A DNA stretch of 45,179 nucleotides from a virus. Made by a program: the position numbers and the translations under genes. The stretch spans positions 1 to 45,179 of IMG/VR virus record IMGVR_UViG_3300036863_000017. One strand, 5' to 3'. The notes below the pieces were generated by a model that was not told where the DNA came from, did not search any database, and worked only from the letters and a program-made list of their open reading frames with translations. Below are positions 1,322-30,276 of the stretch, in pieces (position 1 is the stretch's first letter; every line of letters starts with the position of its first letter).

Positions 1322-1337
1322 GTAAAGGATAAATCAA

Positions 1338-1871: not shown

Positions 1872-2584
1872 TGAATCATTCATACATACCAAGTCAAATT
1901 GATTCTACCAAATGTGGAGTATGTAAATATGATGTTATATCACATACAGATATGGCTTCATGTGAAGCATGTTCATACATTGGTAAATGTGATATATTCA
2001 TGACCATGTTAATGTGTCCCGAATGTATCGCAAAAGAGAAGGCACTCCAAACTGAAAATAAGAATGGAGAGGATAAAAGAATTAATGAAGTAATTGAAAG
2101 GTCACGCGCGGTCGATTACTCCATTTCAGTAAAAGAAGATATATTCAATGCACAAACAATATCTATCAATGAATTGAAATTAGCTATTGAAAATGATGTA
2201 AACATCACGAATAAACGATATGAATTGGCTAATCAGTTGATGGATAGATACAAACATTTCAGTAAGATTATATTCGAGAAGCAACAAGAAATATCAGAAG
2301 AATCAACTAAACAAAGGGCAGTTCAAAGTTACTTAAATCAATTGGCTTCTACTTTAAGAACTGAGGAACGGGAAAGACTCAAACTACAAGATATTAATTA
2401 CAAGCCATCTGAAACTAAACCTAAAGTAAGTAAAGTAACTACTAAAAAAGGATTTGATAAAGTCGAATTAGTTGAATGGGCTAATAAAGCCAATGTTCCA
2501 CTCGCGGCTTTACAAATGATATGTGTGGCAAAGAATATGACTCCTGAACAGGCCTACAATCATTTAAAGAGTAAGGGATTATGA
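1871..2584 (+). CDS. Zinc-finger phage protein, unknown function
   Basis: 237 residues. The first 60 hold CGVC, CEAC, a further Cys and CPEC, fitting one or two zinc knuckles. The middle (about 90-180) is charged and likely helical. The C-terminal 40 residues after a Lys-rich linker look like a small helical domain (VELVEWANKANVPLAALQ). A DNA- or protein-binding role in early infection is plausible but inferred. The start overlaps the upstream stop by 1 nt, and the end overlaps the next gene by 4 nt. Confidence 0.75.
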   Translation: MNHSYIPSQIDSTKCGVCKYDVISHTDMASCEACSYIGKCDIFMTMLMCPECIAKEKALQTENKNGEDKRINEVIERSRAVDYSISVKEDIFNAQTISINELKLAIENDVNITNKRYELANQLMDRYKHFSKIIFEKQQEISEESTKQRAVQSYLNQLASTLRTEERERLKLQDINYKPSETKPKVSKVTTKKGFDKVELVEWANKANVPLAALQMICVAKNMTPEQAYNHLKSKGL

Positions 2585-2808
2585 TTAACATTTATCTTGA
2601 TGAATGCACGGCATTAGCTCATGAAACACCAGCTACTATTGAATTAAGAAGTAATTTTACGAGTCGGATTAAAGGAGCCATAACTATGGGATGGGAATCA
2701 AGAGTAAATAAGAGTAAAGAATTTAGAGAATCAATTAAGAAACTGAAAGAGGAACAAAAAGAACAGGCAATAAAGGCCAGAAAAATAATGCTCAAGTTAA
2801 AGAAATAA
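2581..2808 (+). CDS. Small basic coiled-coil protein, unknown
   Basis: 75 residues. The C-terminal half is a run of Lys/Glu-rich helix (ESIKKLKEEQKEQAIKARK), probably a single helix or coiled coil. Translation appears coupled to the upstream gene through an ATGA overlap. No family recognised. Confidence 0.65.
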   Translation: MINIYLDECTALAHETPATIELRSNFTSRIKGAITMGWESRVNKSKEFRESIKKLKEEQKEQAIKARKIMLKLKK

Positions 2809-2812
2809 GAAT

Positions 2813-3007
2813 ATGATAAGAGAAACTATTATCACCGTAGAATTTGAAATGCCAACAAAAGAGTGTGAACCAACAGATATTTCAATGTCATACTGTTCAA
2901 CACATAAGCAACAGATGGCATCCTGTTGGCAAATGGCAAAAGGAAATTTGTGCTCAGCATGTAAAGAATGGCATCGTAAAGATTTTAACTGCCAAAAGAA
3001 GAATTAA
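2813..3007 (+). CDS. Small Cys/His-rich protein
   Basis: 64 residues with CSTH, C, CSAC, H and C in the last 40 residues, a plausible zinc site. It starts 4 nt after the preceding gene and ends 3 nt before the SprT-SNF2 gene, inside one tightly packed operon. Function not recognised. Confidence 0.65.
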   Translation: MIRETIITVEFEMPTKECEPTDISMSYCSTHKQQMASCWQMAKGNLCSACKEWHRKDFNCQKKN

Positions 3008-3010
3008 ATC

Positions 3011-5152: not shown

Positions 5153-5319
5153 TTATGACAACAAATGAGTTAGTTGCGAAACTAGAAATATGGCGCCAAG
5201 AAAATTTACTTGAAAATGAATTAATCAAGATGGCGATAACTAGATTAGAAGAACAAAATTCTAAAATAGAAACATTGGAAGATATTATAGCTCGCTTAGA
5301 AGAAGAAGAATATGACTAA
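5149..5319 (+). CDS. Small acidic helical protein (56 aa)
   Basis: ATG at 5149 overlaps the helicase stop by 4 nt (ATGA). A second in-frame ATG follows two codons later. The sequence is nearly all helix-forming, Leu/Glu-rich with regular heptads (LVAKLEIWRQ to IIARLEEEE), suggesting a coiled coil. It ends inside the start of the next gene. Function unknown. Confidence 0.6.
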   Translation: MIMTTNELVAKLEIWRQENLLENELIKMAITRLEEQNSKIETLEDIIARLEEEEYD

Positions 5320-5539
5320 AATAAAGAAAATTAAATTTCGAGATGAAGAATATTGGCTAGTCCCATCAGATTTTTGTGAAGGAAATATATGTCCTTTAGA
5401 CCAGTTTACAGAGGATGGAGAAATGTTAGCTAATCCATTTCGTGATATATCTTATGCAATAATTGAAGATGGTGGAAAGATAATGAGATTTGGCCAACAA
5501 ATAGGAACAATCAAAGATATAGAGGAAATAAATGAATAA
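5312..5539 (+). CDS. Hypothetical protein (75 aa)
   Basis: 75 residues, overlapping the upstream gene by 8 nt and the next gene by 8 nt. AAGAAGAAGAA upstream may act as a ribosome-binding site. No family is recognised; the composition is that of a small globular protein. Confidence 0.6.
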   Translation: MTKIKKIKFRDEEYWLVPSDFCEGNICPLDQFTEDGEMLANPFRDISYAIIEDGGKIMRFGQQIGTIKDIEEINE

Positions 5540-5774
5540 CTACGAAGAAATAATCACTAGAATAGTAAATTCATCGCAAGGAATCAAAGGAGTTGATTTA
5601 AGTTTAAAAGTGATGGAAGAAATTAATCCACATAAGTTTTCCATTGAAGAATACAATAAAGCACTTGATGAACTAACTAAAACTAATCAAATCCTAGAGA
5701 TAGAATATATACTACCTCAAATGGATTATAGAATCAAGTCATTTTTCTTACCATCAGGAACTGAGCTACCATGA
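5532..5774 (+). CDS. Hypothetical protein, winged-helix-like (80 aa)
   Basis: 80 residues. The order helix, helix, helix and terminal beta hairpin (EEYNKALDELTKTNQILEIEY, then YRIKSFFLPS) is like a winged-helix fold, suggested only by this pattern. It lies in an unbroken run of overlapping early genes. Confidence 0.6.
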   Translation: MNNYEEIITRIVNSSQGIKGVDLSLKVMEEINPHKFSIEEYNKALDELTKTNQILEIEYILPQMDYRIKSFFLPSGTELP

Positions 5775-5914
5775 AGATAGGAATAGCAATTATTAAGACC
5801 AATATACTAGATGGAATAGAAGTAAATAGTGAAATTTGTTTAGAAGATGATACAATGTTTTCTCTAATAAGAGCTTGTAGAAAATTTGGGTTTAAGGATT
5901 TGATAAAAGAATGA
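5771..5914 (+). CDS. Small hypothetical protein (47 aa)
   Basis: An ATGA overlap at both ends (start 5771 with the upstream stop, stop 5912-5914 with the next start) supports this short frame: MKIGIAIIKTN to RKFGFKDLIKE. Not recognised. Confidence 0.6.
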   Translation: MKIGIAIIKTNILDGIEVNSEICLEDDTMFSLIRACRKFGFKDLIKE

Positions 5915-6882
5915 CTGAGATACTAATACCAAAAAAGAATATTATACTAGATAGTCAAATATTCACTACACTACAGGCTTGCCCACGTTTGTCTGATTTT
6001 ACATTCAATCATAATTTAGTTACTTTAGATGGCAAGTCTAATTCACTTGAAGTAGGTTCACTGGTTCATAAGGTAATGGAAGTCTACAATAGGTCTATTA
6101 TTAATGGCATCAAACGGGACGAAGCAATTGGACATGCACTTATAGCTGGCGAAATATATATTCATGGCTGCAAGTATTGTGCTAATTTTACTTCAGAAAA
6201 TGGAAATAAACCAGAGTGCGGACATCAACCAGACGAATATCCCGGCTTAAAGAATACACCACAAGTAATTGATAAGAATAATCCATTGGAGAAGTACAAA
6301 GTAGGTTGGAAATGGGCATTAGAAACTTGTGAACAATACTTCGATTTTTGGAAAAATGATTCATGGATTCCACTTGAGGTTGAAATAACCAAAGGAGAAA
6401 TATTATATGAAGATGACGAAATTAGAATATTATGGAAGGCAAAGTTTGATAAGATTGTAGATACAAATCAAGGAATCTATCCTATTGATTATAAGACAAT
6501 GAAACAAAATAGAGATACGTTATCTCTAAATAATCAATTTAAAGGTCAATGTCTTTTGGCTAAGACTAGACAAATATGGATTGATAAGATTGGATTTCAA
6601 ACTACATTGGAACCAAAAGATAAGTTCAAGAGAGTTCCAATATCATATTCTGCTGACCAATTACTAGAATGGCAATCACAAGAATTACCTTTCTATGCAA
6701 AAATGATGTTGATGTATAATGAAGTAGGATACTGGCCTCCAAACTATACTCATTGTGAAAACAAATATGGTAAGTGTTTATACTATGAAGATGTATGTAG
6801 AGCAGATAGGGGAATGAGAGAAGAAGAACTTAAATTGCATTTCAAAGTAGGAAAGAAATGGGATATAGGGGATGAAGAATGA
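5911..6882 (+). CDS. PD-(D/E)XK nuclease, Cas4/RecB-like
   Basis: 323 residues. GSLVH (49-53), an acidic residue D180 in KAKFD, and D193-Y-K195 are the ordered motifs of the PD-(D/E)XK nuclease superfamily. C24 near the N-terminus and C282, C289, C296 near the C-terminus are placed as in Cas4/AddB-type nucleases, where four cysteines hold an iron-sulfur cluster. An internal Cys/His insert lies at about 87-104. Such enzymes resect DNA ends. Next to a Sak4-like ATPase and an SSB-like protein, this suggests a phage recombination module. Confidence 0.85.
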   Translation: MTEILIPKKNIILDSQIFTTLQACPRLSDFTFNHNLVTLDGKSNSLEVGSLVHKVMEVYNRSIINGIKRDEAIGHALIAGEIYIHGCKYCANFTSENGNKPECGHQPDEYPGLKNTPQVIDKNNPLEKYKVGWKWALETCEQYFDFWKNDSWIPLEVEITKGEILYEDDEIRILWKAKFDKIVDTNQGIYPIDYKTMKQNRDTLSLNNQFKGQCLLAKTRQIWIDKIGFQTTLEPKDKFKRVPISYSADQLLEWQSQELPFYAKMMLMYNEVGYWPPNYTHCENKYGKCLYYEDVCRADRGMREEELKLHFKVGKKWDIGDEE

Positions 6883-7088
6883 AAATAACTGAAGTAATAA
6901 TTACCATAGAACCAAATGAATCTGAAATAACAAGTGGATTTAAGAAAATACTTTTGATGAGAAATTCACATAAGATATGGAATGTACAAGAGGGTGATGT
7001 TTTCAGAGGATTATTTCCAAGTGAAATAAGATTAGCAAATTTTATTCAAGAAAATGTAATATATAAGTATAATACTAGAGGAGAATAA
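6879..7088 (+). CDS. Hypothetical protein (69 aa)
   Basis: 69 residues between the nuclease and the ATPase, overlapping the first by 4 nt and the second by 1 nt. No recognised motif. Its position inside the recombination module suggests it is expressed together with these genes, nothing more. Confidence 0.6.
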   Translation: MKITEVIITIEPNESEITSGFKKILLMRNSHKIWNVQEGDVFRGLFPSEIRLANFIQENVIYKYNTRGE

Positions 7089-7942
7089 TGAACACATTAG
7101 ACCAAGCAGACCCTAGACTTATATACGCAATGTTCAAGGGCGAACCGGGGACACGTAAATCAACATGTGCATTATCATTTCCTTCTCCACAATATTGGTT
7201 CTCATGGGACCAAAAGATGAATGGAATACTTATTCCAGCTAAACAATGGAATATAGATGTAAAGAAAATTCACTATGATGATTATTCTGATTGGAATGCA
7301 GCTAAGGCTAAACTAGAAGCATTTCAATTAAATTGCGATTATCAAACTTTAGTTTTTGATTCCTTAACTTCATGCGCGGATATGACTTTGAGACAAACAT
7401 TAAAACTGAAAGCAGGAGTAACTCGTCAAAGTGGAGCGAAAGCAGGTAAATTAATTGCAGGTATTTCAATCAACGAAATTGAAGATTATGCTGCTGAATC
7501 TTCTGCTCTACAAGAGTTAATTGCCTTAACAAAAGATATACAGAAATATCAAAAAAGTCGAGGTAAATTTCTCAACATAATTCTAATAGCACATGTGGTT
7601 CAAGCTGAATATCGCAATACAACTACAGGTGAAACTCATATTAGTCGAACAATAGTAACGGCTGGTAAGAAAGTAGCCCCTAAAATACCGGCATATTGTA
7701 GTGAGGTATATCACTTCAATATAAAGAAAGGATTTGAAGCAGATGCAGGAGGTAAATATGCCTTATTGACACAACACACAGGAGATGATTTTGCTCGAAC
7801 TGCACTCCCATTAGATAAGGAGATTATATTTGAGGATAGACCTTTATATCAGGATTATATTTTACCTGCTATAGAGAAAATGTTACCACCAAAACAAACA
7901 AACCAAACACAACAAACCACAACAAAAAACTTTGGAGTTTAG
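7088..7942 (+). CDS. Sak4-like RecA-fold ATPase (AAA_24 type)
   Basis: 284 residues. GEPGTRKS at 18-25 is a Walker A loop, and TLVFDS ending near D91 is Walker B. This arrangement is that of the phage nucleotide-binding AAA_24/Sak4 proteins, RecA-core ATPases with single-strand annealing or recombination activity. The C-terminal Gln/Thr-rich tail (about 267-280) is probably disordered. The gene is followed 3 nt later by an SSB-like gene, the usual partnership for Sak4 proteins. Confidence 0.85.
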   Translation: MNTLDQADPRLIYAMFKGEPGTRKSTCALSFPSPQYWFSWDQKMNGILIPAKQWNIDVKKIHYDDYSDWNAAKAKLEAFQLNCDYQTLVFDSLTSCADMTLRQTLKLKAGVTRQSGAKAGKLIAGISINEIEDYAAESSALQELIALTKDIQKYQKSRGKFLNIILIAHVVQAEYRNTTTGETHISRTIVTAGKKVAPKIPAYCSEVYHFNIKKGFEADAGGKYALLTQHTGDDFARTALPLDKEIIFEDRPLYQDYILPAIEKMLPPKQTNQTQQTTTKNFGV

Positions 7943-7945
7943 ACA

Positions 7946-8353
7946 ATGCCTATCATTCAATTTTCGGAGAAAGACTTACTTCGTGGCAAATTGATTACTC
8001 CCGGATGGTATAGAGTATTGATTGATGAAGTAGGTGAATCTCTTAGTAAGGACCAAGGTTCTACTAATTATCCTGTAGAAGCTACAGTTCTTTTTCATGG
8101 AGACACAGGAGATACTGAATTTAAAGGTGTTCCACTTGAATGGAACTTTAATTCAAAGGCTATTGGCTTCGCGGTTGGTTATTTGAAAGTTCTTGGAGTA
8201 GAAGTTAAACCGGGAGTTAGATTTGATTTGGCTAAAAGTAAAGGAGAACAAATCGACGTGTTTGTAGAGAATCAAGAGTATCAAGGAAGAATGATTAATA
8301 AAGTTAATCATAAGTATCGTGAACCACGTAAAGATGTTCAGGCGGCTGCTTAA
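7946..8353 (+). CDS. SSB-like / DUF669-type protein
   Basis: 135 residues. The order (PGWYRVLIDEV, then YPVEATVLF, then a long insert and IDVFVENQEYQGRMINKV) follows the beta-rich phage proteins grouped as DUF669 or SSB-like. These bind single-stranded DNA and accompany Sak4 ATPases. It lacks an acidic C-terminal tail of its own. The next gene encodes a separate, very acidic peptide. Confidence 0.65.
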   Translation: MPIIQFSEKDLLRGKLITPGWYRVLIDEVGESLSKDQGSTNYPVEATVLFHGDTGDTEFKGVPLEWNFNSKAIGFAVGYLKVLGVEVKPGVRFDLAKSKGEQIDVFVENQEYQGRMINKVNHKYREPRKDVQAAA

Positions 8354-8370
8354 TTAAAAAGGAGAATGTA

Positions 8371-8496
8371 ATGCCAAGTAACGGAGAAGATAAAGAAGTA
8401 AAAGAAGAAGAATTAGATGATACAGTTGATGGTGAAGATGAGGAAGATACAGAAGATGAAGAAGAAGAAACAGACGTAACTGATGAAAATGAATAA
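8371..8496 (+). CDS. Very acidic 41-aa protein
   Basis: ATG at 8371 has a strong GGAG 7 nt upstream. Of 41 residues 24 are Asp or Glu, there are few hydrophobic residues, and the chain should be disordered. It follows the SSB-like gene directly, so it may act in trans as the acidic tail that recruits partners in normal SSBs. Alternatively it may mimic DNA. Both are inferences. It ends just before the structured leader of the cold-shock-like gene. Confidence 0.65.
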   Translation: MPSNGEDKEVKEEELDDTVDGEDEEDTEDEEEETDVTDENE

Positions 8497-8525
8497 CAAG
8501 ATATTCATCTGATTAATTTAACACA

Positions 8526-8620
8526 CTTAAATTCTACATCTTATTCCTACCTGCTGGGGGAAAAAATAAGATGCGCGTGTAAAGTCTCAAGAACTTTGAG
8601 ATGCGCTAATAGAATTTAGG
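8526..8620 (+). ncRNA. Three-way-junction RNA element
   Basis: Closing stem 8526-8536 pairs with 8610-8620 (11 pairs, one G-U). A second stem 8537-8545/8565-8573 (9 Watson-Crick pairs) starts at the next base. A third arm has TCTCAA (8585-8590) with TTGAGA (8596-8601), extended by GCGT-type pairs (8575-8578/8603-8606). The second loop (8546-8564) has CCTACCT and GGGGG and could make tertiary contacts. It resembles no known class I can name. Its position suggests a cis-regulatory leader of the cold-shock-like gene. Confidence 0.55.
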
Positions 8621-8645
8621 ACATATAAAGTTAATTAGGTGGATA

Positions 8646-8712
8646 GGATGGTCCATTACTCTGTTACTCTAATCCAAAACAGATGTGACAGTTTAAAAGT
8701 AGTGGGCCATCC
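8646..8712 (+). promoter_or_regulatory. Long hairpin before cold-shock-like gene
   Basis: 8646-8660 pairs with 8698-8712 (15 pairs including G-U). The stem continues after a 6-nt bulge as 8661-8667 with 8685-8691 (7 pairs). It is followed by CTTTATTTTA, so it may act as an attenuator or weak terminator. The Shine-Dalgarno of the next gene lies 20 nt downstream. An alternative lower stem (8639-8644/8709-8714) competes with the main stem. Confidence 0.55.
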
Positions 8713-8741
8713 ACTTTATTTTACATAAATTGAGGAAACTA

Positions 8742-8999
8742 ATGGCAGAAGAATTAACAGAAGAACAAGTTGCAACAAAACCAGTAATTGGAAAAATTAA
8801 TTTTATATCAGAAGAAGGTTGGTTTTTCATCATTAGTAAAGAAATTCCTTTTGAACGTATCTTCGGACATTGGACTGCATTACGTGGAGATACTTTAAAT
8901 TTCAAGGAATTAGAAGAAGGAATGAATGTAGAATTTATTCCTATTAAGATTCCTGAAAAGGGATACAGGGCTATTAAAATAAAGGTGATTAATGAATAA
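8742..8999 (+). CDS. Cold-shock-like (CSD/OB-fold) protein
   Basis: 85 residues from the ATG at 8742, which has GAGG 7 nt upstream; a TTG at 8730 lies before that Shine-Dalgarno and is rejected. GKINFISEEGWFFI, then FERIFGHWTALRGD, then LEEGMNVEF and GYRAIKI follow the order of CspA-family proteins (GxVKxF..xGFGFI, DVFVH.S.., EGQxVEF). The aromatic RNA-binding positions are only partly kept. Such proteins bind single-stranded nucleic acid as chaperones. The unusually long structured leader (8497-8741) is reminiscent of bacterial csp genes. Confidence 0.65.
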   Translation: MAEELTEEQVATKPVIGKINFISEEGWFFIISKEIPFERIFGHWTALRGDTLNFKELEEGMNVEFIPIKIPEKGYRAIKIKVINE

Positions 9000-9231
9000 A
9001 ATATTTGCCAGGCGAATTGAATTATTCACAAAAAGTGGAACAAGAGTCACATATACTCATGTAACAAAATTTGAAGTTAGTCCATCAACAAATAAAGAAA
9101 TTACTATGCCAATATTATTTATTAATGGAGAAATTGATGATGTAGATGGGTCAAGAATTTATATAGAGGAGCAATTTCCTGTTTCAGATATAGAATTTAC
9201 ATTAATTGATTGGTATGTTCCCTTTGAGTGA
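8992..9231 (+). CDS. Hypothetical protein (79 aa)
   Basis: 79 residues, overlapping the cold-shock-like gene by 8 nt. It appears beta-rich (RIELFTKSGTRVTYTHVTKF, ITMPILFINGEI). No family recognised. Confidence 0.6.
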   Translation: MNKIFARRIELFTKSGTRVTYTHVTKFEVSPSTNKEITMPILFINGEIDDVDGSRIYIEEQFPVSDIEFTLIDWYVPFE

Positions 9232-9234
9232 TTT

Positions 9235-9405
9235 ATGCCATCACATCCTGATAGGGTAAGACGTAATTATTGTGAACATGAATTTAAAGTTATTCAGGGT
9301 GTGACTGTATCTGACATGATTAAATTTGCATTTTATTGTGTCAAATGTGGTTTCATAGGCAAGTCTTGGTTTCCTGGTATAGATAAAGAACCAGTAAATG
9401 ACTAA
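9235..9405 (+). CDS. Small zinc-ribbon protein (56 aa)
   Basis: ATG at 9235, stop overlapping the polymerase start by 8 nt. Cys and His at YCEH and CVKC make a four-ligand zinc site in 56 residues. It sits immediately before the UDG-polymerase gene, so it is probably translated together with it. Role unknown. Confidence 0.65.
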   Translation: MPSHPDRVRRNYCEHEFKVIQGVTVSDMIKFAFYCVKCGFIGKSWFPGIDKEPVND

Positions 9406-11083
9406 AAAATATGTCCCAGGAATGGGTAATGCCGGGGCAAAATTAATGTTCTTAGGCGAAGCCCCATCATATGATGAAACCATTACAGGTAAACCATTCA
9501 CAGGACCATCTGGTAGGGAATTAGATAAGTTATGTAAAGATTCAGGAATAAATAGAAATGAAGGATGGGTATCAAATGTATTCAAATATGAAATACCATC
9601 TAATCCGAAAGGTAAGAAAATTCCGGCTTGGATTCGCGCGAAGAATATTGGCATTAATGTCGAGGAATCATTAAGTGAATTACAAAATGAAATTAATGCT
9701 ATTAAGCCAAATTGTATATTGGCTCTTGGTGGTACTGCTCTTTGGGCTATTACTGGGAAAACCAAGATTACTAATTATCGTGGTTCTATTATGTTGGGTA
9801 TGGGCCGCAAATGTGTGCCTACTTATCATCCTGCGCACCTATTACATCAAGAAGGAGAAATCAAAGGATATTGGAACAGATATATAATGATATTTGACTT
9901 CAAACGGGCCTATCAACAAAGTAAGTTTGAAGAACTAGTATTACCTCAGAGAACACTTCAAATTTGCAAATCTTCATATGACTTACATGCATTTTATGAA
10001 AGATACAAACATCTGGAAAAAGTTTCCGTGGATATTGAAGCTGGCGGTAGTTGTATTCCTATTTGCATTGGGCTTGCATTTAATAAATCACATGGGTTAT
10101 GCATTCCTTTATGGAGTAACGATGGGATTAGTAATATACCAGATACTGATATGGTCCAAGTGTGGATTAAATTAGCTGAAATATTACAAAGTCATGGAAT
10201 CATAGGACAAAATTTCAATTATGATAAAGATAAAATCAAAAAATTGGGATTTACTATAAAGAAACTAGTGTCTGACACTATGTTAAAGGCATTTGCCATT
10301 AACCCAGAACTTCCTAAAAGACTTGCCTTCAATCAAAGTATATATACTGAGGAACCTTTCTATAAAGATGAAGGAATGTATGAGGGGAAACTAGAAGAAC
10401 TATTTTTAGGCTGTGCGCGAGATGCGTGTGTTACATATGAAGTTGATGAAGGCATGGACCCTGATTTAGATGAATTAGGCCAGAGAGATTTTTATGAAAA
10501 CTTCCTTATGAAATTACCTGAATTTTATGGTGAAATGGAAAATACTGGATTTGGACAAGACATAGTAGTTAGAGATAGATTGATACATAAGTATGTCGAA
10601 TGGGATGAGAAACTTAAATATGAATTATTCAAATTAACTAATCAAGAAGTCAATTGTAATTCACCTAAACAAGTATATTCTCTACTTTTTGATACATTAA
10701 AATGTCCTGTTCGTAGAGGAACTGGTGAGGAAGAACTTACCTCACTTTTAAATCTACAATCTTTTACAGACCAAGATAAAAGAAGAATTGTAGAAATCAT
10801 ACTTGAAGATAGGAGAGTTCGTAAAACATTATCAACTTACTTAATGGCATTACCAGATTTCGATGGAAGAATGCGAACCACATTTTTTCCTTGTTTAGAG
10901 ACTGGACGTAGTTCAACAGGACAACAAGACCCACCTATTAGACCTGTAATGGATGTTAAAACTGGTAAGTTTACTGGTAAGAAGAAAAAAGGACAGAACT
11001 ACAAGGCATTGGGAATGGCATTTCAAACTATGACGAAACATGGTGATATTGGTGCGGATATAAGGGAGATGTTTATTCCATGA
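9398..11083 (+). CDS. UDG-DNA polymerase A, N-terminal half (split gene)
   Basis: 561 residues. Residues 1-170 are a family 4-type uracil-DNA glycosylase domain (GEAP at 20-23, PFTGPSGRE, PTYHPAH at 141-147). Residues 205-350 are a 3'-5' exonuclease, with D212 and E214 (exo I), QNFNYD (exo II) and RDACVTYEV at 341-349 (exo III). The thumb and start of the palm follow. The frame stops right after DIREMFIP, the segment that directly precedes polymerase motif A in family A enzymes. The remainder is encoded at 12024-12968. UDG-polymerase fusions are known in phages such as SPO1. Confidence 0.9.
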   Translation: MTKKYVPGMGNAGAKLMFLGEAPSYDETITGKPFTGPSGRELDKLCKDSGINRNEGWVSNVFKYEIPSNPKGKKIPAWIRAKNIGINVEESLSELQNEINAIKPNCILALGGTALWAITGKTKITNYRGSIMLGMGRKCVPTYHPAHLLHQEGEIKGYWNRYIMIFDFKRAYQQSKFEELVLPQRTLQICKSSYDLHAFYERYKHLEKVSVDIEAGGSCIPICIGLAFNKSHGLCIPLWSNDGISNIPDTDMVQVWIKLAEILQSHGIIGQNFNYDKDKIKKLGFTIKKLVSDTMLKAFAINPELPKRLAFNQSIYTEEPFYKDEGMYEGKLEELFLGCARDACVTYEVDEGMDPDLDELGQRDFYENFLMKLPEFYGEMENTGFGQDIVVRDRLIHKYVEWDEKLKYELFKLTNQEVNCNSPKQVYSLLFDTLKCPVRRGTGEEELTSLLNLQSFTDQDKRRIVEIILEDRRVRKTLSTYLMALPDFDGRMRTTFFPCLETGRSSTGQQDPPIRPVMDVKTGKFTGKKKKGQNYKALGMAFQTMTKHGDIGADIREMFIP

Positions 11084-11253
11084 CTGTGAAAGAACTTATC
11101 AGAAAACTTGAAGGATTACAATGTGATGATTGGAAAATTATAGCTCATTGTTATCCTGATTGGGAAGGACCAGATTTTCTAGCGGAAATTGAATCTCTTG
11201 AACTAGATGAAAATCATAATCAAATTATTATTGAGCTGGATTTACCTTCATGA
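11080..11253 (+). CDS. Small hypothetical protein inside polymerase split (57 aa)
   Basis: First of five small genes between the polymerase halves. ATG at 11080 overlaps the polymerase stop by 4 nt, and its own stop overlaps the next ATG. The sequence (MTVKELIRKLEGLQCDDWKI to IIIELDLPS) looks like a small alpha/beta protein. Short phage proteins of the form VxELIxxLxxxPxDxxV are common; their function is unknown. Confidence 0.65.
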   Translation: MTVKELIRKLEGLQCDDWKIIAHCYPDWEGPDFLAEIESLELDENHNQIIIELDLPS

Positions 11254-11504
11254 ATCGTAGGGAACTATTAAAGTTAGTTGGATTAGGAGTAGTTAATCAT
11301 ACTCTCGATTTAGATAAATTACTATGGATTCCCGGTCAAAAGAAAATATTTATTCCTTCTGGTAAGGAATTAAGTTTATTAGGTATTCCCTACCATATCA
11401 GTGATTGTTCAATGGGAGCATGGCTAGGAATACGACGCAATCAAAATGCTATGAATGAATTAGTAAATCTTATAAGAATAATGGAGAAAAATAAAATAAG
11501 ATGA
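11250..11504 (+). CDS. Capsid-segment-like small protein with RR leader
   Basis: 84 residues. Residues 43-63 (LLGIPYHISDCSMGAWLGIRR) match residues 227-247 of the major capsid protein encoded at 29026-30276 (LFGVPYHHSNASTGTWLGFSR form) at 12 of 21 positions. The N-terminus MNRRELLKLVGLGVV has a twin-arginine-like start followed by a hydrophobic stretch, and a similar start is seen at 15726. WIPGQKKIFIPSG precedes the capsid-like part. Related short phage proteins exist as far as I recall, with unknown function. It is translationally coupled within the polymerase split. Confidence 0.7.
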   Translation: MNRRELLKLVGLGVVNHTLDLDKLLWIPGQKKIFIPSGKELSLLGIPYHISDCSMGAWLGIRRNQNAMNELVNLIRIMEKNKIR

Positions 11505-11662
11505 GTTTAACAAGACAACAATGGATAGAATTATGGAATCACGTATGCAATATAGAACATGCAGCTAAATTCTTAAAATCACCACCTACTAAACAGACTA
11601 TTCTATGGGAAGTAAAGAAGATTAAGGAAATGATTGAATCTGTGATAGGACAAATGGAATGA
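11501..11662 (+). CDS. Small conserved phage protein (53 aa)
   Basis: Starts by ATGA overlap with the upstream gene. MSLTRQQWIELWNHVCNIE and ILWEVKKIKEMIESVIGQME form two amphipathic helices. Short helical proteins of this pattern recur in phage early regions, with no known role. Confidence 0.65.
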   Translation: MSLTRQQWIELWNHVCNIEHAAKFLKSPPTKQTILWEVKKIKEMIESVIGQME

Positions 11663-11817
11663 TTTTTCATTTATTACATGATTGGCACGCAACTGGCAAT
11701 GAAGAAACTAGACATGGAATGGACTACTTCTGCAATGAAAAAGCTGAATTATGGATTGAGCGAAAATGTTGTGTTTGTAACAAAATAAAATGGTTCAAAT
11801 ATAAATTTGGAATATAA
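11659..11817 (+). CDS. Small Cys/His protein (52 aa)
   Basis: ATGA overlap with the upstream gene. HDWH, a Cys and CCVC near the end may form a metal site. The stop lies inside the start region of the next frame. Fourth gene of the cassette that divides the polymerase. Confidence 0.55.
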   Translation: MIFHLLHDWHATGNEETRHGMDYFCNEKAELWIERKCCVCNKIKWFKYKFGI

Positions 11818-12031
11818 AACGACCACAGAAGAATTAAGAAGAAAATTTAATAATGAATTTAGATTAAGTAAATGGCCTGCAACATATGAGGTAGATTCTG
11901 AAACATATGCTAATGTATGTCAAACAATATTTGAATGGGCTGGGGATTTAGGTTTGGTCAAAATAGCAATTGGACCTAATAATGGAATTATGTTCAAAAA
12001 CGTAGAATTAATACTTAAGAAAAATGACTAA
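11807..12031 (+). CDS. Hypothetical protein with TTG start (74 aa)
   Basis: The frame begins with TTG at 11807 because no ATG is available before the conserved-looking part (TEELRRKFNNEFRLSKWPATY). Residues 20-65 (YEVDSETYANVCQTIFEW to IGPNNGIMFKNVEL) look like a real folded small domain. It overlaps the upstream gene by 11 nt and the C-terminal polymerase gene by 8 nt, so translation may be coupled. Confidence 0.65.
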   Translation: MEYKTTTEELRRKFNNEFRLSKWPATYEVDSETYANVCQTIFEWAGDLGLVKIAIGPNNGIMFKNVELILKKND

Positions 12032-12968
12032 TAAATTAGTCTTTATACAAGCAGACAGTAGCCAAGCGGAATCAAGAGTAGTTTTTTTACTAGCCAATGA
12101 CGAACAAGCATTAAAGGATATAGATGAACATGACTATCATGCACTTACTGCATCGTGGTTTTTCGGCGGTAGTGAAAATGATTATAGTAAAAAGATACTT
12201 GGCTATGAATCACCGATTAGGTTTGCAGGGAAAACTTTACGACATGCGGGCCATCTTGGAGCTGGAAAACGTAGAGCAGCAACTGAACTCAATACCCAAG
12301 CAAGGAAGTATAAAATATCTATTCAAATTAATGAGGCTATCGCTGAACGTGCATTAAAAATATTTCATACTAAACAACCTAAAATTCAACAGGTATTCCA
12401 TTTTGAAGTAATCAATTCTCTCAAGATTAATAGGCGACTAGTCGCGCCAGTTCCATATGGCATTAACTCAAAAATAGGAGGTATCCGAACCTTTTATGAA
12501 AGATGGTCAGATGAATTATTTAGGCAAGCATTTAGTTATTTACCTCAGAGAGCAGTGACAGATAATACAAAGGCTTCAGGACTAAGAATAAAGAAATTAA
12601 TTCCTCAAATTAAAATTTACTTAGAAGCACATGATGCCTTACTTTTTGGAGCACCTGAGAATCAGGTCGAGGAATGGTCTGAAATAATTAAATATGAATT
12701 TGAAAGGCCAATTAGATTTGAAAACTGTAGTTTAAGTAGACGTGATTTAATCATACCATGTGAAATTGAAATAGGAGATAATTATCGTCAGTTAAAAAAG
12801 TTCAGTAGAGATATTCCAATTATTAGACCACCTATTATTGAACCTGAATTAGTTCCAGTAAGTATAACAGAAAAATACACTGTTATAGATTTACCTGAAG
12901 ATTCAAAGAAAGATAGTATAATTTATTATGCCAATGAAATACGAGATAGTATTAACAATCCGGAATGA
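12024..12968 (+). CDS. DNA polymerase A, C-terminal half (split gene)
   Basis: 314 residues. KLVFIQADSSQAESRVV carries motif A with catalytic D11. Residues 66-82 (RFAGKTLRHAGHLGAGK) are motif B (O-helix), and H203-D204 in EAHDALLF is motif C. All three catalytic motifs are intact. The sequence starts where the upstream half ends, with only about three extra residues (MTN). The two halves therefore together make one full family A polymerase and probably assemble as two chains. No intein or splice motif was seen. Confidence 0.9.
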   Translation: MTNKLVFIQADSSQAESRVVFLLANDEQALKDIDEHDYHALTASWFFGGSENDYSKKILGYESPIRFAGKTLRHAGHLGAGKRRAATELNTQARKYKISIQINEAIAERALKIFHTKQPKIQQVFHFEVINSLKINRRLVAPVPYGINSKIGGIRTFYERWSDELFRQAFSYLPQRAVTDNTKASGLRIKKLIPQIKIYLEAHDALLFGAPENQVEEWSEIIKYEFERPIRFENCSLSRRDLIIPCEIEIGDNYRQLKKFSRDIPIIRPPIIEPELVPVSITEKYTVIDLPEDSKKDSIIYYANEIRDSINNPE

Positions 12969-13119
12969 AGATAAATTTGAATCTTTAGATAAAATACAAG
13001 CAGATGATTTACTTCATCTTGCTTCTCAACTTACATTTGTGCTACTAAATATTCAGCGTAAAGAACACGATGAAGAAATGTCAGCGTTAAGGATGAAAGA
13101 TGATGATATTCCATTTTAA
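12934..13119 (+). CDS. Small conserved phage protein (61 aa)
   Basis: Overlaps the polymerase gene. An alternative ATG lies two codons upstream (12928). MKYEIVLTIRNEDKFESLD then LLHLASQLTFVLLNIQRKEHDEEM has a beta strand and a long helix. Similar short proteins lie near replication genes in other phages; role unknown. Confidence 0.6.
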   Translation: MKYEIVLTIRNEDKFESLDKIQADDLLHLASQLTFVLLNIQRKEHDEEMSALRMKDDDIPF

Positions 13120-13270
13120 ATTTACAATCGAGGAAATCAAGGTATTGAATTCTTTTTTTAGCCATCAATACATATCATGTGAAAACATGTCTTTATTGGA
13201 ACTTGTTCGTAAGTTACAAAAAATAGAAGAAGAACATGACATGGTTAACGGAACTAGTAAGCCAACATAG
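13103..13270 (+). CDS. Small hypothetical protein (55 aa)
   Basis: Frame from ATG at 13103 to TAG at 13268-13270, overlapping both neighbours. FTIEEIKVLNSFFSHQYI and SLLELVRKLQKIEEEHD form two amphipathic helices, typical of a real small protein. It fills the only gap between 13119 and 13236. A shorter start at 13187 is possible. Confidence 0.5.
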   Translation: MIFHFKFTIEEIKVLNSFFSHQYISCENMSLLELVRKLQKIEEEHDMVNGTSKPT

Positions 13271-14525
13271 TGAATTTGAATCTCCTTTATCTTTCTGGAA
13301 ATGGAGTGCATTAGCTGCTATTTCAGCAGTAGTTAAGGACCAAGTATGGCTACCTAGATACTTATATAATTTATATCCTAATGTATATGTTATGTTACAT
13401 GCAGAAAGTGGATTGAAAAAAGGTCCACCTGTATCTATGGCTGCGCGCTTGGTTTCTACTATTAATAATACAAAAGTAATACAAGGTAGAAGTTCAATAC
13501 AAGGTATATTAAAAGAATTAGGCACAGCACAAACAGTTCCGGGTGGAAAAATTACTAGTCAATCAACGGCTTTCATTTGTAGTTCAGAGTTAACATCAAG
13601 TATTGTAGATGACCCTGTAGCGGCTAAAATATTAACGGACTTATATGATAGACAATATAGATTTGGTGATTGGGCATCATTACTTAAGATGGAAAGTTTC
13701 AAGTTAAATAATCCTACTATTACAATGCTTACTGCAACTAACGAGGCCATGTCAGAAGATTTTTTCGATAAGAGTGCAATTCAAGGTGGTTATTTTGCGC
13801 GCACTTTTATTATATATGAGAAGGAGGAAAACCGCTCAAATGCTTTAATGGTTCCACCTAAATTAATTCCTGATTATAAAGAACTTGCAAATTATCTACG
13901 TGAGTTAGTTAAGCTAAAAGGTCAATTTCAGGAATTAGGAAGTAGAGAAGAAAGTGATATTTATACGGAGGAATATAAAGATAGAAAGACAGATGAGATA
14001 GGTTACTTAACTCCCGCTGGAGCTATATATCAGAATTGGTATGATGATTTTAAAGCAGTTCTTAAGGAACAACAAGTCAAGGATAATACTGGTACGCTGA
14101 ATCGCTTCGGCGATAGCGTATTAAAAGTTGCAATGTTACTTTCATTAGCCAAATGTCCTAATCTAATGATACATGAAGAATCAATGTCAGAGGCTATTTC
14201 TGTATGTGAAAAGTTAATAGGTAATGTTAGACGCGCGACGATGGGTAAACAGGGTATGTCGGATAGTAGTCCAGTAAAAAATCACATCATACATGAATTA
14301 CTAAATAGAGAAACTCATTCAATTAGTCAAGTTATGTTAATGAAAAAAATGTGGATGCATTATTCTACAGTAGAAGAATTTGCTGATATAATGCAATCTT
14401 TTGAAGCTGCTGGTATGATTAAAACTAGTAATATTGGTAATCAGATTATTTACGAAATGGAACCTAAAGTTGTGAAGGAATTGAAAGATTTTCTAGATGG
14501 AAAAAATAAAAATGAGAAAAGTTAA
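13236..14525 (+). CDS. DUF3987-like helicase/primase-type protein
   Basis: 429 residues. The arrangement resembles phage proteins grouped with DUF3987: an early FWKWSALAAISAVVKDQVWL segment, then a P-loop-like HAESGLKKGPPV at about 54-65, then FICSSEL, then a helical C-terminal part. The group is often fused to or placed near primases and helicases. The P-loop is degenerate (no GK[ST]), so activity may differ. It lies after the polymerase, in keeping with a replication role. No separate DnaB-like helicase or TOPRIM primase is visible in the window, so this gene may fill that place. Confidence 0.65.
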   Translation: MTWLTELVSQHSEFESPLSFWKWSALAAISAVVKDQVWLPRYLYNLYPNVYVMLHAESGLKKGPPVSMAARLVSTINNTKVIQGRSSIQGILKELGTAQTVPGGKITSQSTAFICSSELTSSIVDDPVAAKILTDLYDRQYRFGDWASLLKMESFKLNNPTITMLTATNEAMSEDFFDKSAIQGGYFARTFIIYEKEENRSNALMVPPKLIPDYKELANYLRELVKLKGQFQELGSREESDIYTEEYKDRKTDEIGYLTPAGAIYQNWYDDFKAVLKEQQVKDNTGTLNRFGDSVLKVAMLLSLAKCPNLMIHEESMSEAISVCEKLIGNVRRATMGKQGMSDSSPVKNHIIHELLNRETHSISQVMLMKKMWMHYSTVEEFADIMQSFEAAGMIKTSNIGNQIIYEMEPKVVKELKDFLDGKNKNEKS

Positions 14526-15020
14526 AGTATGGAAAGACTTTCCAATGGAAAATCTTGATGGTAAAATTTTCAAAAAATGCACAAGATGTTTAGAAATTAA
14601 GCCTATAGAGGATTTCTATATAGATTTAACAAAATCTAATGGTTATAGACCAATCTGTATTGAATGCACAAAAAAGAAAATGGCAGACTACCGAATAAAT
14701 AATAAGGAAAAAATAAACTTAAAAAGAATAGAAGTATCATATGGATTGACAGAAATTGAATTCAATTTACTTTCCTTAAAACAGAATAACTTATGTGCTA
14801 TATGTAAAAAATCAATGTTAGTTTATCGTGGTGCCCAAATTGACATGACAAAGAAACAGGAGGGGTTCGTGGATTATTATGTATGAATTGTAATGTAGGA
14901 ATAGGAAGTTTAAAACATGATACTGAAATTTTAGCTAATGCGATTGGTTATTTAAATGAAATGCCTGAAAATCAAGTAAAAGAATTACAAGAATTTCTGG
15001 CAGGAAAATCGAGGAGATAA
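14497..15020 (+). pseudogene. Endonuclease VII-like gene broken by 1-nt frameshift
   Basis: 14497-14886 encodes the N-terminal zinc part (CTRC, CIEC) and the start of an endonuclease VII domain (YGLTEIEFNLL, CAICKK), then runs out of frame at GFVDYYV. Adding one C between 14844 and 14845 would give IDHDKETGGVRGLLCMNCN, the HNH/endo VII core, and the frame would continue to TAA at 15018-15020. The lost base removes the catalytic His codon. It may be a real pseudogene, a sequencing error, or a site of recoding; no classical slippery heptamer is visible. Such enzymes resolve branched DNA or act as homing nucleases. Confidence 0.85.
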
Positions 15021-15025
15021 AAATA

Positions 15026-15217
15026 ATGATTGACATGGGACATGATAATTTACTGAATGACATTAACAAATTTTTTAAGGATGTTACTGAATATCAATAT
15101 CATGATTTCAAAAATAGTATCTATGATGCACCAAAGTTAGCATTAGTTAAAAAATTAGAATGGTTAATTAATAATACTAAAGATGGTAAATATGATAATT
15201 TTGAGTCAGAGAGATAA
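15026..15217 (+). CDS. Small conserved phage protein (63 aa)
   Basis: GAGGAG 11 nt before the ATG at 15026 supports the start (a second ATG is three codons later). The sequence LLNDINKFFKDVTEYQYHDFKN then PKLALVKKLEWLINNTKDGKYDN is mainly helical. Recognised only as a small early phage protein type. Confidence 0.65.
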   Translation: MIDMGHDNLLNDINKFFKDVTEYQYHDFKNSIYDAPKLALVKKLEWLINNTKDGKYDNFESER

Positions 15218-15220
15218 AGT

Positions 15221-15544
15221 ATGATTACATTTGACCCAAATGGCGGAGATTTAGGACGTGCATCTATAACTCATATACATCCACTTGAATTTCATGTAGT
15301 TATTCCACATATAGCTGATATTCTTGAATCATTACATAATATTAAAATATCAACTTTACCATTTAAATATGCATTTGAATTTTCTTCTTACTATAAAGAC
15401 CAAATTTTAATGGAGATAAATACAGCCAAATTACCAGAACATGTTTCATTTTATGAATGTGATGGAAAGAAGTTGTTTGAAATGCGAGGTGCATCTGGTG
15501 GTGTAGTTTCTGGATTAATTTGTTATTTAGTTACGAAGGATTAA
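15221..15544 (+). CDS. Capsid-segment-like protein
   Basis: 107 residues. Residues 4-13 (FDPNGGDLGR) match capsid residues 62-71 (FNPDGGDLGR) at 8 of 10. Residues 76-104 (SFYECDGKKLFEMRGASGGV and on) match capsid residues 363-391 at 16 of 29. The region between does not obviously match. The protein therefore looks like an N-terminal and a C-terminal segment of the phage's own capsid protein joined with most of the middle missing, yet it is encoded in the early region on the opposite strand. Role unknown; capsid-assembly regulation or decoy function are hypotheses. Confidence 0.75.
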   Translation: MITFDPNGGDLGRASITHIHPLEFHVVIPHIADILESLHNIKISTLPFKYAFEFSSYYKDQILMEINTAKLPEHVSFYECDGKKLFEMRGASGGVVSGLICYLVTKD

Positions 15545-15729
15545 TGATGACAAAAGACCCAGAAGTAATTGAAAGATGGATTACATTAGTAAATGAGGAG
15601 GGAAGGGGATTAAATAAATGGGAACAAGATTTCATGGAATCCATTACTGATAGATTTGAAAGAAGTAGGTTTATTACCGATAGACAAGAGGAAATACTTG
15701 AAAGAATATATAGTGAAAAAACTCCATGA
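15544..15729 (+). CDS. Conserved small phage protein (61 aa)
   Basis: The frame is open further upstream, but ATG at 15544 overlaps the previous stop (TAATG) and has AAGGA before it; a second ATG follows immediately. WITLVNEEGRGLNKWEQDFM, then ITDRQEEILERIYSEKTP is a recurrent small phage protein pattern with a long C-terminal helix. Function unknown. It separates two capsid-segment-like genes. Confidence 0.7.
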   Translation: MMTKDPEVIERWITLVNEEGRGLNKWEQDFMESITDRFERSRFITDRQEEILERIYSEKTP

Positions 15730-15929
15730 ATAGAAGGTTATTTCTAAAATCTATTTTATCTGCTGCTGTATTAGCACAGACTAATATTGACACTATTTTA
15801 GACAATATTATTTTAGATACTGAACATTTATCTGATACTGAATTTGTTGCATACATCAATATACAAATGAATATGTGGGTTACAAATCCCACAAGTTGTG
15901 CAATTATAAATCATATAAATGAACCATGA
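15726..15929 (+). CDS. RR-leader small protein with capsid C-terminus-like end
   Basis: 67 residues, start by ATGA overlap. The N-terminus MNRRLFLKSILSAAVLAQ resembles a twin-arginine or lipoprotein-like leader and the start of the protein at 11250. The C-terminal MNMWVTNPTSCAIINHI parallels the capsid C-terminus (MQTFVSNPAATAYIDAL form) with V, NP, A and I kept; this match alone is weak. It lies next to the stronger capsid-like gene at 15221. Confidence 0.6.
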   Translation: MNRRLFLKSILSAAVLAQTNIDTILDNIILDTEHLSDTEFVAYINIQMNMWVTNPTSCAIINHINEP

Positions 15930-15947
15930 AAGTAATTTATAAAGTAT

Positions 15948-16436
15948 ATGAATCTAGACTTATTAAAAAAACTAACAAGATTAGCTAATAATAATCCAAA
16001 TGATAATGAAGCTAATTTAGCTGCTAGACGTGTATGTAAAATATTAGAAGAAGGTAATTGGTCTTTGCCCAGTATTCAGTCTAGACCTAATACTGTCCCA
16101 CCTCGTACATGGAATGATGCTTGGAGGTCTACTGAACCACAATGGAAAAGTAAACCACCAGATAAACCATCTGAACCTGATAGAGAACATCAAAAGAGAC
16201 AAGAAGAATTTTATAGGAAATATTATAGACCATCAAGAGCACAGGAAGAATTCTTTCGAGATATATACGTAGGTGTTGATTTTGGTTTTGGTCCTTCCAA
16301 ACCATCAAAACCACCAAGAGAAAAAAGACCAATGGAATGTACTAGGTGTCATCAAACAAAAGAAACTGCATATGTAGGTAATTTGTATATCTGTAATGAA
16401 TGTATATGGAATGAATATAAGGAGAAAAGAGCATGA
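15948..16436 (+). CDS. DUF2786-like N-terminus with zinc ribbon C-terminus
   Basis: 162 residues. LLKKLTRLANNNPNDNEANL and AARRVCKILEEGN resemble the helical DUF2786 domain found in phage and bacterial proteins. A long Pro/Arg-rich linker (about 45-125) follows, then CTRC and CNEC, a zinc ribbon. Start at 15948, shortly after the upstream stop. The linker has several Trp and Pro-rich repeats (KPSKPP). Function unknown. Confidence 0.65.
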   Translation: MNLDLLKKLTRLANNNPNDNEANLAARRVCKILEEGNWSLPSIQSRPNTVPPRTWNDAWRSTEPQWKSKPPDKPSEPDREHQKRQEEFYRKYYRPSRAQEEFFRDIYVGVDFGFGPSKPSKPPREKRPMECTRCHQTKETAYVGNLYICNECIWNEYKEKRA

Positions 16437-16485
16437 AATAAATGATGGTAGTTATAAAAATGCAGCAGAATAATAGGAGAATAAA

Positions 16486-16926
16486 ATGATAGACTATCTA
16501 GGTTCAGTTAAAGAGTTCCATGAAAAATATGGTCATTATATTTCAAATAAACCAGTTATTCCCCCTGAAAGAGTAATTGAATTACGATATAGATTAATTG
16601 AAGAAGAAATGAATGAGACCCTTGGTGCTCTAAGAGAACTGATGAATGCTAATCCTCTAAATCCAATTAGGGATGACTATTATATTGATTTAGCAGATGG
16701 AATAGCTGATTCAATTGTAGTATTAATGGGAACTATTCTTGCTTTTGGTATTCCTATTGAAGAAGTATTTAAAGAAGTTCACCGTTCAAATATGAGTAAA
16801 TCAACTGAAACTAATGAATATGGTAAGACTATTAAGGGACCAAATTATAGTCCACCAGATATTAAATCAATTATTCATTTATATCTACGAGAAGAACCTA
16901 GAACTAGGAAAGGAAGTTTAGATTAA
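16486..16926 (+). CDS. MazG-like nucleotide pyrophosphohydrolase
   Basis: 146 residues. ATAGGAGAATAAAATG gives a clear Shine-Dalgarno. LIEEEMNET (EExxE type) near residue 38 and the DLADGIADSIVV helix supply the acidic metal ligands of the all-alpha NTP pyrophosphohydrolase (MazG/PRA-PH) superfamily. The C-terminal EVHRSNMSK, then GPNYSPPDI is typical of the phage forms. Phage MazG enzymes are thought to remove noncanonical or signalling nucleotides. Confidence 0.85.
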   Translation: MIDYLGSVKEFHEKYGHYISNKPVIPPERVIELRYRLIEEEMNETLGALRELMNANPLNPIRDDYYIDLADGIADSIVVLMGTILAFGIPIEEVFKEVHRSNMSKSTETNEYGKTIKGPNYSPPDIKSIIHLYLREEPRTRKGSLD

Positions 16927-17105
16927 TGAATAATTTTCATATATTAGTTTATGATGAAGCTTTTGTAGACCCAAAACATATGGGGGCTTTAATAATAAAA
17001 TTAAATGAAAAATTTCCAAATGATATATTCTATTCAATATCACATTTAAATCATGATGAAAGTCCGGTTTACTTAATAAGCTGTGAACTGAAGGAAAATA
17101 AGTAA
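16926..17105 (+). CDS. Hypothetical protein (59 aa)
   Basis: TAATG overlap at both ends. MNNFHILVYDEAFVDPKHMG to YLISCELKENK reads as an alpha/beta small domain. Not recognised. Confidence 0.55.
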   Translation: MNNFHILVYDEAFVDPKHMGALIIKLNEKFPNDIFYSISHLNHDESPVYLISCELKENK

Positions 17106-29025: not shown

Positions 29026-30276
29026 TTAATAACCAGTAGGTGGAACTAAAGCATCAATATATGCTGTAGCAGCAGGATTTGAAACGAAAGTCTGCATACC
29101 ACATACCATATAAAAGATTTCAGCAGTTGCCACACCACCTGAAGCACCACGAATTTCAAAGATATTTCTTCCATCGGTCTTATAGAAACCAATAGGAAGT
29201 GTCTCACCACGACCCCAAACTTCATCAACAACAAAGTCAATACGTGTATTGTCCCAATTGAAGTGGTCCCTTACACTAGCACCAGCCATTTGCATTTTAT
29301 CGCCAAAATACAAATCTAATGCTTCATCCTTTGCTGTTTTCTGAATCATAATGACAAGCTGCCCAAGTTCTTCATATGCTTGTTTTTGAGCAGGATGCAT
29401 CCATGCAACAGGTTTAAACGTGTTTTCCATTCCAACACGATTTCCTATTTTATTCATTGCTAAACGTGGAAGTGGTAGTGCAAGAGCGGCAGAATTACCA
29501 TTTACACGATTGGAACGAATTTCAGGAGTAGCTGCTCTACTAAAGCCTAACCATGTTCCAGTTGAAGCATTGGAATGATGGTAAGGAACTCCAAATAAAG
29601 CAGGTAGAGAAGTAGGTGAAGAAATACCATTGGTAACAATTCTATCGGTAGCAACTGCACCAGCAATAGCAGGTGTTACATCAATAGACTTGTTTTCAAC
29701 GTCCCATTTGGTAATTACTCCACTACCACGTAAAGTAGCAAAAGTAGTATCAAATACCTGAATGGTTTGACCAAATCTCATTAGGCGCGCACCGAATCCA
29801 TCACTACCTAATGTATATGTATCAACACCACCAGCAGTAGCTACAACAGAAATAGTTCCAATAGCTCCATTTCCTGTCTGCATTAACTGTGAATCAAGCT
29901 GCCGTCTTAATTCATCTAATGCAGTCGCCGTTAAACGTCTTACACCATTTGTAACAGCTTTACGTGGGTCATCAGTAGACCATTGAGTCAGTTTTGTGTA
30001 TTCAATATTTTCTGATACGAATACACTAGTAAGAACTGCTTTATCGAAAGATGGTCCACCACCTCTACCTAAATCACCACCATCAGGATTAAAATACTGG
30101 AAAGAACCACCAGGTCTTAATTCTAATGGAATACGCATTTGTCGATTACTAATTTTCTCAACATCGCGCTTTTTGATATTGGCATAAAACTTGTCATCCC
30201 TTTCAAAAAGAACTCTAATTTTAGGAATAACACGTTCCAATTCTAAGGCTGCGATTTGAGATTCAACTACTGCCAT
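29026..30276 (-). CDS. Major capsid protein
   Basis: 416 residues. N-terminal helix with charged residues, then FQYFNPDGGDLGRGGG (59-74), a central beta domain, LFGVPYHHSNASTGTWLGFS (227-246), and IGFYKTDGRNIFEIRGASGG (362-381) before NPAATAYIDAL near the end. This pattern and its place after a scaffold-like gene fit an HK97-fold major capsid protein of a phage group without a cleaved pro-domain. Segments of it recur in small early ORFs at 11250, 15221 and 15726. Confidence 0.85.
   Translation of the reverse strand: MAVVESQIAALELERVIPKIRVLFERDDKFYANIKKRDVEKISNRQMRIPLELRPGGSFQYFNPDGGDLGRGGGPSFDKAVLTSVFVSENIEYTKLTQWSTDDPRKAVTNGVRRLTATALDELRRQLDSQLMQTGNGAIGTISVVATAGGVDTYTLGSDGFGARLMRFGQTIQVFDTTFATLRGSGVITKWDVENKSIDVTPAIAGAVATDRIVTNGISSPTSLPALFGVPYHHSNASTGTWLGFSRAATPEIRSNRVNGNSAALALPLPRLAMNKIGNRVGMENTFKPVAWMHPAQKQAYEELGQLVIMIQKTAKDEALDLYFGDKMQMAGASVRDHFNWDNTRIDFVVDEVWGRGETLPIGFYKTDGRNIFEIRGASGGVATAEIFYMVCGMQTFVSNPAATAYIDALVPPTGY

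Follow-up and report, generated by a model that had tools for sequence, protein, structure and literature searches.

Small phage genes carry segments of the major capsid protein, most behind a twin-arginine-type leader, and may act as capsid decoys

The window analyzed here covers positions 1 to 45,179 of the viral record IMGVR_UViG_3300036863_000017 from IMG/VR. Three small open reading frames (ORFs) on its plus strand, 11250, 15221, and 15726, encode mini-proteins 1, 2, and 3, which resemble segments of the major capsid protein (MCP), and the MCP gene lies on the opposite strand; these positions agree with those given in a previous sequence-only reading of the window. That reading also described the small genes as translationally coupled. 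At the junctions, the start of ORF 11250 overlaps the stop of ORF 11080-11253 and the start of ORF 15726 overlaps the preceding stop at 15729 (ATGA in both cases), while ORF 15221 starts 3 bases past its neighbour's stop. Together, the mini-proteins carry complementary parts of the capsid (residues 61-74 plus 362-393, 225-250, and 384-411). Sequence comparison places the three ORFs in a broad class of small phage proteins made of MCP segments. The features of the locus are as follows.

11250..11504, plus strand: mini-protein 1 (84 amino acids), with a twin-arginine translocation (Tat)-like leader, the LLWIPGQKKIFIP motif, and a capsid middle segment; capsid profile 19.8 bits
11250..11357, plus strand: leader of mini-protein 1, MNRRELLKLVGLGVVNHTLDLDKLLWIPGQKKIFIP; the module recurs in 81 unique sequences
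11370..11447, plus strand: capsid-like segment of mini-protein 1, residues 41-66, corresponding to capsid 225-250; 12 of 22 identical, 19.8 bits
15221..15544, plus strand: mini-protein 2 (107 amino acids), leaderless, two capsid segments flanking an unrelated middle; four orthologues
15227..15268, plus strand: segment TFDPNGGDLGRASI of mini-protein 2, residues 3-16, corresponding to capsid 61-74; hhalign E 2.7e-5
15443..15538, plus strand: segment VSFYECDGKKLFEMRGASGGVVSGLICYLVTK of mini-protein 2, residues 75-106, corresponding to capsid 362-393; hhalign E 3.7e-13
15726..15929, plus strand: mini-protein 3 (67 amino acids), Tat-like leader MNRRLFLKS and a capsid C-tail segment; homologue at G031 1199-1399
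15837..15920, plus strand: capsid-like segment of mini-protein 3, residues 38-65, corresponding to capsid 384-411; 10.2 bits
29026..30276, minus strand: MCP (416 amino acids); phrog_14242 major head protein, E 1.5e-5
30055..30096, minus strand: capsid residues 61-74, counterpart of mini-protein 2; profile-profile match
29527..29604, minus strand: capsid residues 225-250, counterpart of mini-protein 1; capsid profile match
29098..29193, minus strand: capsid residues 362-393, counterpart of mini-protein 2; profile-profile match
29044..29127, minus strand: capsid residues 384-411, counterpart of mini-protein 3; capsid profile match

About 50 phage records supplied 15,725 small ORFs, which were scored with the MCP profile; 15,725 shuffled ORFs served as the control. 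ORFs 15221, 11250, and 15726 scored 32.2, 19.8, and 10.2 bits, against 6.7-7.2 bits for the best shuffled ORF. When the capsid was compared by BLAST with all ORFs of the window, ORFs 15221 and 11250 ranked directly after the capsid itself. ORF 15221 resembles the capsid at the two sites claimed in the sequence-only reading. Here 16 of 30 residues are identical at capsid 362-391 (E 5e-7 within the window), and its FDPNGGDLGR shares 8 of 10 residues with FNPDGGDLGR at 62-71. Both sites were recovered when the two families were aligned with hhalign (residues 75-106 with 362-393, E 3.7e-13; residues 3-16 with 61-74, E 2.7e-5). The middle of this ORF (14-74, about 60 residues) had no capsid match in the profile-profile comparison, so the possibility that the whole ORF is a capsid domain, hinted at by a 65-residue pairwise alignment, was rejected. 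The match of ORF 11250, placed earlier at capsid 227-247, comprises 12 of 22 identical residues at 226-247. The third match, to the capsid C-terminus, is weak in pairwise alignment, as had been noted, but real, since the 10.2 bits of ORF 15726 to capsid 384-411 exceed the shuffled maximum of 6.7 with the same profile; a second phage also encodes a homologue of this ORF (G031 1199-1399, E 1e-10). The absence of any profile relation to the capsid family had been named as an outcome that would overturn the resemblance, and the relation found by hhalign and the capsid profile is significant. Chance or low complexity is ruled out as the source of the similarity by the shuffled controls. By these comparisons the similarity of the window ORFs to the capsid is real and broader than first noticed. 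The mini-proteins consist only of capsid segments within 67-107 amino acids, compared with about 416 for a full-length capsid, and are therefore not capsid proteins themselves.

Searches of Pfam, PHROG, and NCBIfam left the window ORFs unmatched beyond weak DUF noise, and sequence searches of the PDB gave no relevant match. The AlphaFold model of ORF 15221 (pLDDT 81, pTM 0.71; five sequences) is confident from residue 16 on, and its product thus looks like a folded protein, for which the fold search found no significant match among solved structures. The capsid itself was poorly modelled (pLDDT 47), and the fold search with that model was uninformative.

The mini-genes are under purifying selection. 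The ratio of nonsynonymous to synonymous substitution rates (dN/dS) was 0.12-0.33 in the ORF 15221 family and 0.07-0.32 in other mini-protein families, compared with 0.08-0.12 in capsid controls; a lack of purifying selection was the other outcome that the sequence-only reading had held to be fatal. Four other phages encode orthologues of ORF 15221 (58-68% identity), and both capsid-like segments are among the best-conserved parts. The dN/dS values and the orthologues rule out pseudogene fragments, and the view that the segments are not random debris is upheld. Recent duplication or gene conversion from the phage's own capsid was likewise rejected, because, of the shared residues, only 9 of 16 and 6 of 12 have identical codons, and the rank of the own capsid is random; nucleotide identity between the window mini-genes and the own capsid is 61-64%. 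Among 71 capsids the own one ranked from 1 to 69 (mean about 38), so that the resemblance, first ascribed to the phage's own capsid, is instead to its capsid family. The window capsid has more than 300 relatives in viral contigs.

The relatives carry different parts of the capsid, as judged by sequence similarity. The commonest segment is the capsid N-terminus (residues 3-59 in G004, G015, G016, G017, G018, G020, G024, G037, G051, G061, and G070), and others have a middle segment (226-253, G027) or a C-terminal one (G001, G002, G003, G021, G046, and G070). The trio of the window is thus not conserved as a unit, contrary to what had been supposed. Among near-full-length relatives (42 kb or more), 13 of 24 carry at least one mini-gene and 11 of 24 none, although, the records being linear and possibly incomplete, absence is not proven. 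In 23 N-terminal mini-proteins F24, D27, F30, and Y31 are invariant and E12 and R15 are present in 22, with residue preferences of their own elsewhere. In a tree they were separated from the capsids by two label changes, compared with 20 expected from shuffling, and a single origin was not rejected (approximately unbiased test, p 0.56), on only 56 columns of weak resolution. Two paralogues in G037 (574-864 and 39410-39679) have nearly identical leaders; one tail is clearly capsid N-terminal and the other has drifted, yet remains in register with capsid 2-42 (not significant alone). The 62-kb G017 record contains two diverged sets of the same genes (1-17000 and 46000-62483) and may represent two phages joined in assembly.

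The features that define the class had been overlooked: a Tat-like leader, an LLWIPGxKxIFIP motif, and recurrence with unrelated capsid families. ORFs 11250 (MNRRELL) and 15726 (MNRRLFL) begin with a Tat-like MNRR leader and show the N-terminal twin arginine followed by a hydrophobic stretch that is typical of Tat substrates; in ORF 11250 a conserved LDxDKLLWIPGxKxIFIP motif precedes the capsid segment. Most mini-proteins of relatives likewise start with MNRRxFL, followed by LDxDKLLWVPGxKxIFLP and the capsid segment. In most of the class this module is constant, with LDPE[KR]LLWVPGxKxI[FS][IL]P after a twin-arginine leader of Tat-like type, and a variable tail follows. Searching viral contigs for it gave 81 unique modules in which W, P, G, and the final P are invariant. 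All 81 have K or R at +5, 71 have the upstream RR, and the 14 residues after RR have a mean hydropathy of 1.56. Several members match the Tat signal models PF10518 or TIGR01409, some at or above the curated cut-off (for TIGR01409, 16.7, reached by L206 with 17.3 and L183 with 16.7). Leaders are modular relative to tails, the leader of the window's middle-type mini-protein being closest (76%) to those of N-terminal tails. The motif was absent from all proteins of more than 220 residues in the fetched genomes, and neither the leader nor the window capsid had a match in cultured phage records. Motif matches in genome contigs were mostly due to chance, with L337 and L348 the only real members.

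Scanning public viral contigs with the motif yielded 86 different tails, about 41 of which match an MCP. By phmmer (E < 0.01) against 3,205 phage proteins, 42 of the 86 had matches, the best to E ~1e-16, compared with 0 to 4 per round for shuffled tails (five rounds). Nearly all of these matches are MCPs of about 400-455 residues, from three sequence-unrelated families: the window type, P22-like phrog_283, and (one match) Mu-like phrog_133/4523. With capsid profiles, 24 tails were assigned to the window type and 16-17 to the P22-like type, and each of these scores was higher than any obtained from 4,300 shuffled tails. Because the window-type capsids had been collected with a capsid search, their family is over-represented among the proteins compared, a bias on which the findings for the P22-like and Mu-like types do not depend. 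The only family matches of members were to Tat signal models and, for one tail, to the phrog_283 head protein. Sequence comparison indicates that tails resemble various parts of the MCP of the phage's capsid family, as seen within single genomes in G047 (18 of 25 identical, capsid 104-128), G055 and G063 (26 of 61 and 24 of 63, capsid 244-306), and G074 (27 of 54, capsid 2-55). In L348, a contig binned with an acidobacterium, three overlapping tandem genes, each with its own leader, carry in order N-terminal (20 bits), middle (26 bits), and C-terminal (28 bits) coat segments. No source could be assigned to about half of the tails. The tails of L280, L312, and L323 appeared capsid-like by eye, failed the profile test, and were excluded from the counts. 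A subgroup of non-assigned tails (L284, L291, L292, L296, L317, and L320) are similar to one another (...DG...GG...YFDV.VRG.E). Two LWIPG-leader proteins with identical tails (G054 28523-29044 and G071 33076-33597) find their best match not in the capsid but in a large, 851-residue protein of the same genome (p ~0.004-0.007), and mimicry by the class may therefore extend beyond the MCP to other proteins.

Within the window capsid family, 16 of 19 mini-genes lie on the strand opposite to the capsid gene, and they adjoin DNA polymerase and small early genes, from which we infer that they are expressed early. In G021 (5247-5471) and G046 (29986-30195), leaderless small genes matching capsid 352-391 follow the capsid gene at a short distance on the same strand and may represent a separate type that is expressed late. 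In the window, the family A DNA polymerase is split into two proteins (9398-11083 and 12024-12968) just before the D-SQAE motif, and the gap holds five small genes including mini-protein 1; the junction is continuous in a single ORF in G017, G052, and G059. Elsewhere in the window, an ORF at 1338-1871 has a long Asn/Tyr-rich repeat tract (YYNYYNNYNNNYYNYYNNNN).

As far as sequence comparison can tell, this class is a previously undescribed kind of small phage protein. Our search of open-access PMC literature, covering no preprints and few subscription journals, found no account of leader-tagged capsid segments. To our knowledge, no assembly inhibitor or capsid redirector is built from segments of its target capsid with a Tat-like leader, their sequences not having been compared here.

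Bacteria are known to sense the MCP: CapRel SJ46 does so by direct binding, Gol, a short peptide of the T4 MCP, activates Lit, and escape from PifA maps to the MCP (PMC9712102). For this reason we tentatively favour, while rating it somewhat short of an even chance, a role of the mini-proteins as accessory, membrane-directed capsid decoys that would occupy host capsid sensors. The combination of an unchanging leader and a capsid-like tail that varies suggests an adaptor linking a constant site in the host to a capsid recogniser. The leader is predicted to direct the mini-proteins to the inner membrane, either through insertion by the Tat system or by serving as an anchor. The tail would mimic capsid surfaces bound by MCP-sensing host factors, which would be occupied or removed before the real capsid protein is made, and several complementary segments per genome could cover several sensors or epitopes. 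This role is supported by the use of one leader type for segments of three unrelated MCP families, by the L348 tandem genes with N-terminal, middle, and C-terminal segments each behind its own leader, and by a modular leader, purifying selection, and, in the window family, location mostly opposite to the capsid strand and beside polymerase-type genes. The patchy distribution (13 of 24) fits accessory arms-race genes, and the Tat model matches of several members also count in its favour.

Several points weigh against decoys. ORFs 11250 and 15726 do not match the curated models TIGR01409 and PF10518, and some members, such as ORF 15221 and L312, lack the RR leader. Tat export would normally take a protein out of the cytoplasm, where the capsid is synthesized. 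A decoy of the own capsid might be expected to track it, and the ranks given above show that tails do not. The nine proteins searched had no match among the PADLOC-DB models (E up to 0.1), and thus none to a known family of defence or anti-defence proteins. The wider proposal, that unrelated capsid families have repeatedly built early, leader-tagged, membrane-directed sets of capsid segments that blind or remove capsid-sensing immunity, seems possible but on balance doubtful.

Interference between phages, in which early capsid fragments co-assemble with and poison the capsids of co-infecting related phages, is unlikely. On the one hand, the segments are conserved, family-wide parts of the MCP, the mini-proteins resemble capsids of relatives as well as their own, their distribution is accessory, and the blocking of assembly as a phage weapon has a reported precedent in a prophage-encoded inhibitor of virion formation (PMC10884400). 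On the other hand, similarity to the own capsid is not lower than to other capsids, so that self-poisoning is not obviously avoided, and a membrane-directing leader has no clear role.

Help in the phage's own head assembly, as a membrane-anchored nucleator, chaperone, or minor capsid component using capsid contacts, is quite improbable. The segments are of capsid-contact type (N-terminal part, FDPNGGDLGR loop, and C-terminal strands), T4 proheads are known to assemble on the inner membrane, and the leaderless members of G021 and G046 lie beside the capsid gene on its strand; however, about half of the near-full-length relatives have no mini-gene, most mini-genes occupy the early strand, well away from the structural genes, and tails do not co-vary with the own capsid. 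It is very unlikely that the tails titrate the capsid-remodelling factors of capsid-hijacking satellites: these remodel the hijacked coat protein, as reported for example for PLE TcaP (PMC10945586) and SaPI rcm (PMC12409344), and the evidence is otherwise the same as for decoys of host sensors, but we know of no satellite for these uncultured hosts, and the leader is left unexplained. Random capture of gene fragments by a mobile leader cassette, with capsid remnants left to drift, would suit the modular leader and the half of tails with no assignable source, but is largely refuted, and scarcely credible, given that assignable tails are nearly all MCP, that dN/dS is 0.07-0.33, that F24, D27, F30, and Y31 are invariant in 23 N-terminal mini-proteins, and that tail matches reach E ~1e-16.

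Direct sensing of the MCP is an emerging theme in bacterial immunity, to which we know of no general phage answer. That unrelated phages carry capsid segments behind one constant leader points to a common selective pressure on capsid recognition, a question for which the mini-proteins offer testable proteins. Should their role instead be to interfere with other phages or to control assembly, a family of phage genes composed of pieces of the phage's own shell protein would still be new, and the LWVPG motif provides a sequence handle for locating such genes in viral dark matter.

In relation to known systems, the mini-proteins are small and could act on the assembly of capsids or virions, like the prophage-encoded inhibitors and satellite capsid redirectors reported in PMC10884400 and PMC10945586. 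Their tails are homologous to HK97/P22-type MCPs (phrog_14242-like, phrog_283, and phrog_133/4523), but they are segments of 20-70 residues, never the whole set of capsid domains, and form a lineage apart from the capsid genes. They share with Tat signal proteins (TIGR01409 and PF10518) an N-terminal RRxFL followed by a moderately hydrophobic stretch, and differ in adding a fixed LLWVPGxKxIFIP motif and a capsid-derived tail, with the window ORFs below the detection of these models. As in Gol/Lit and CapRel SJ46, the MCP or a short segment of it would be the signature seen by bacterial defence; in those systems the capsid itself is the trigger, whereas here the segments are carried by separate small genes, most of which bear a leader.

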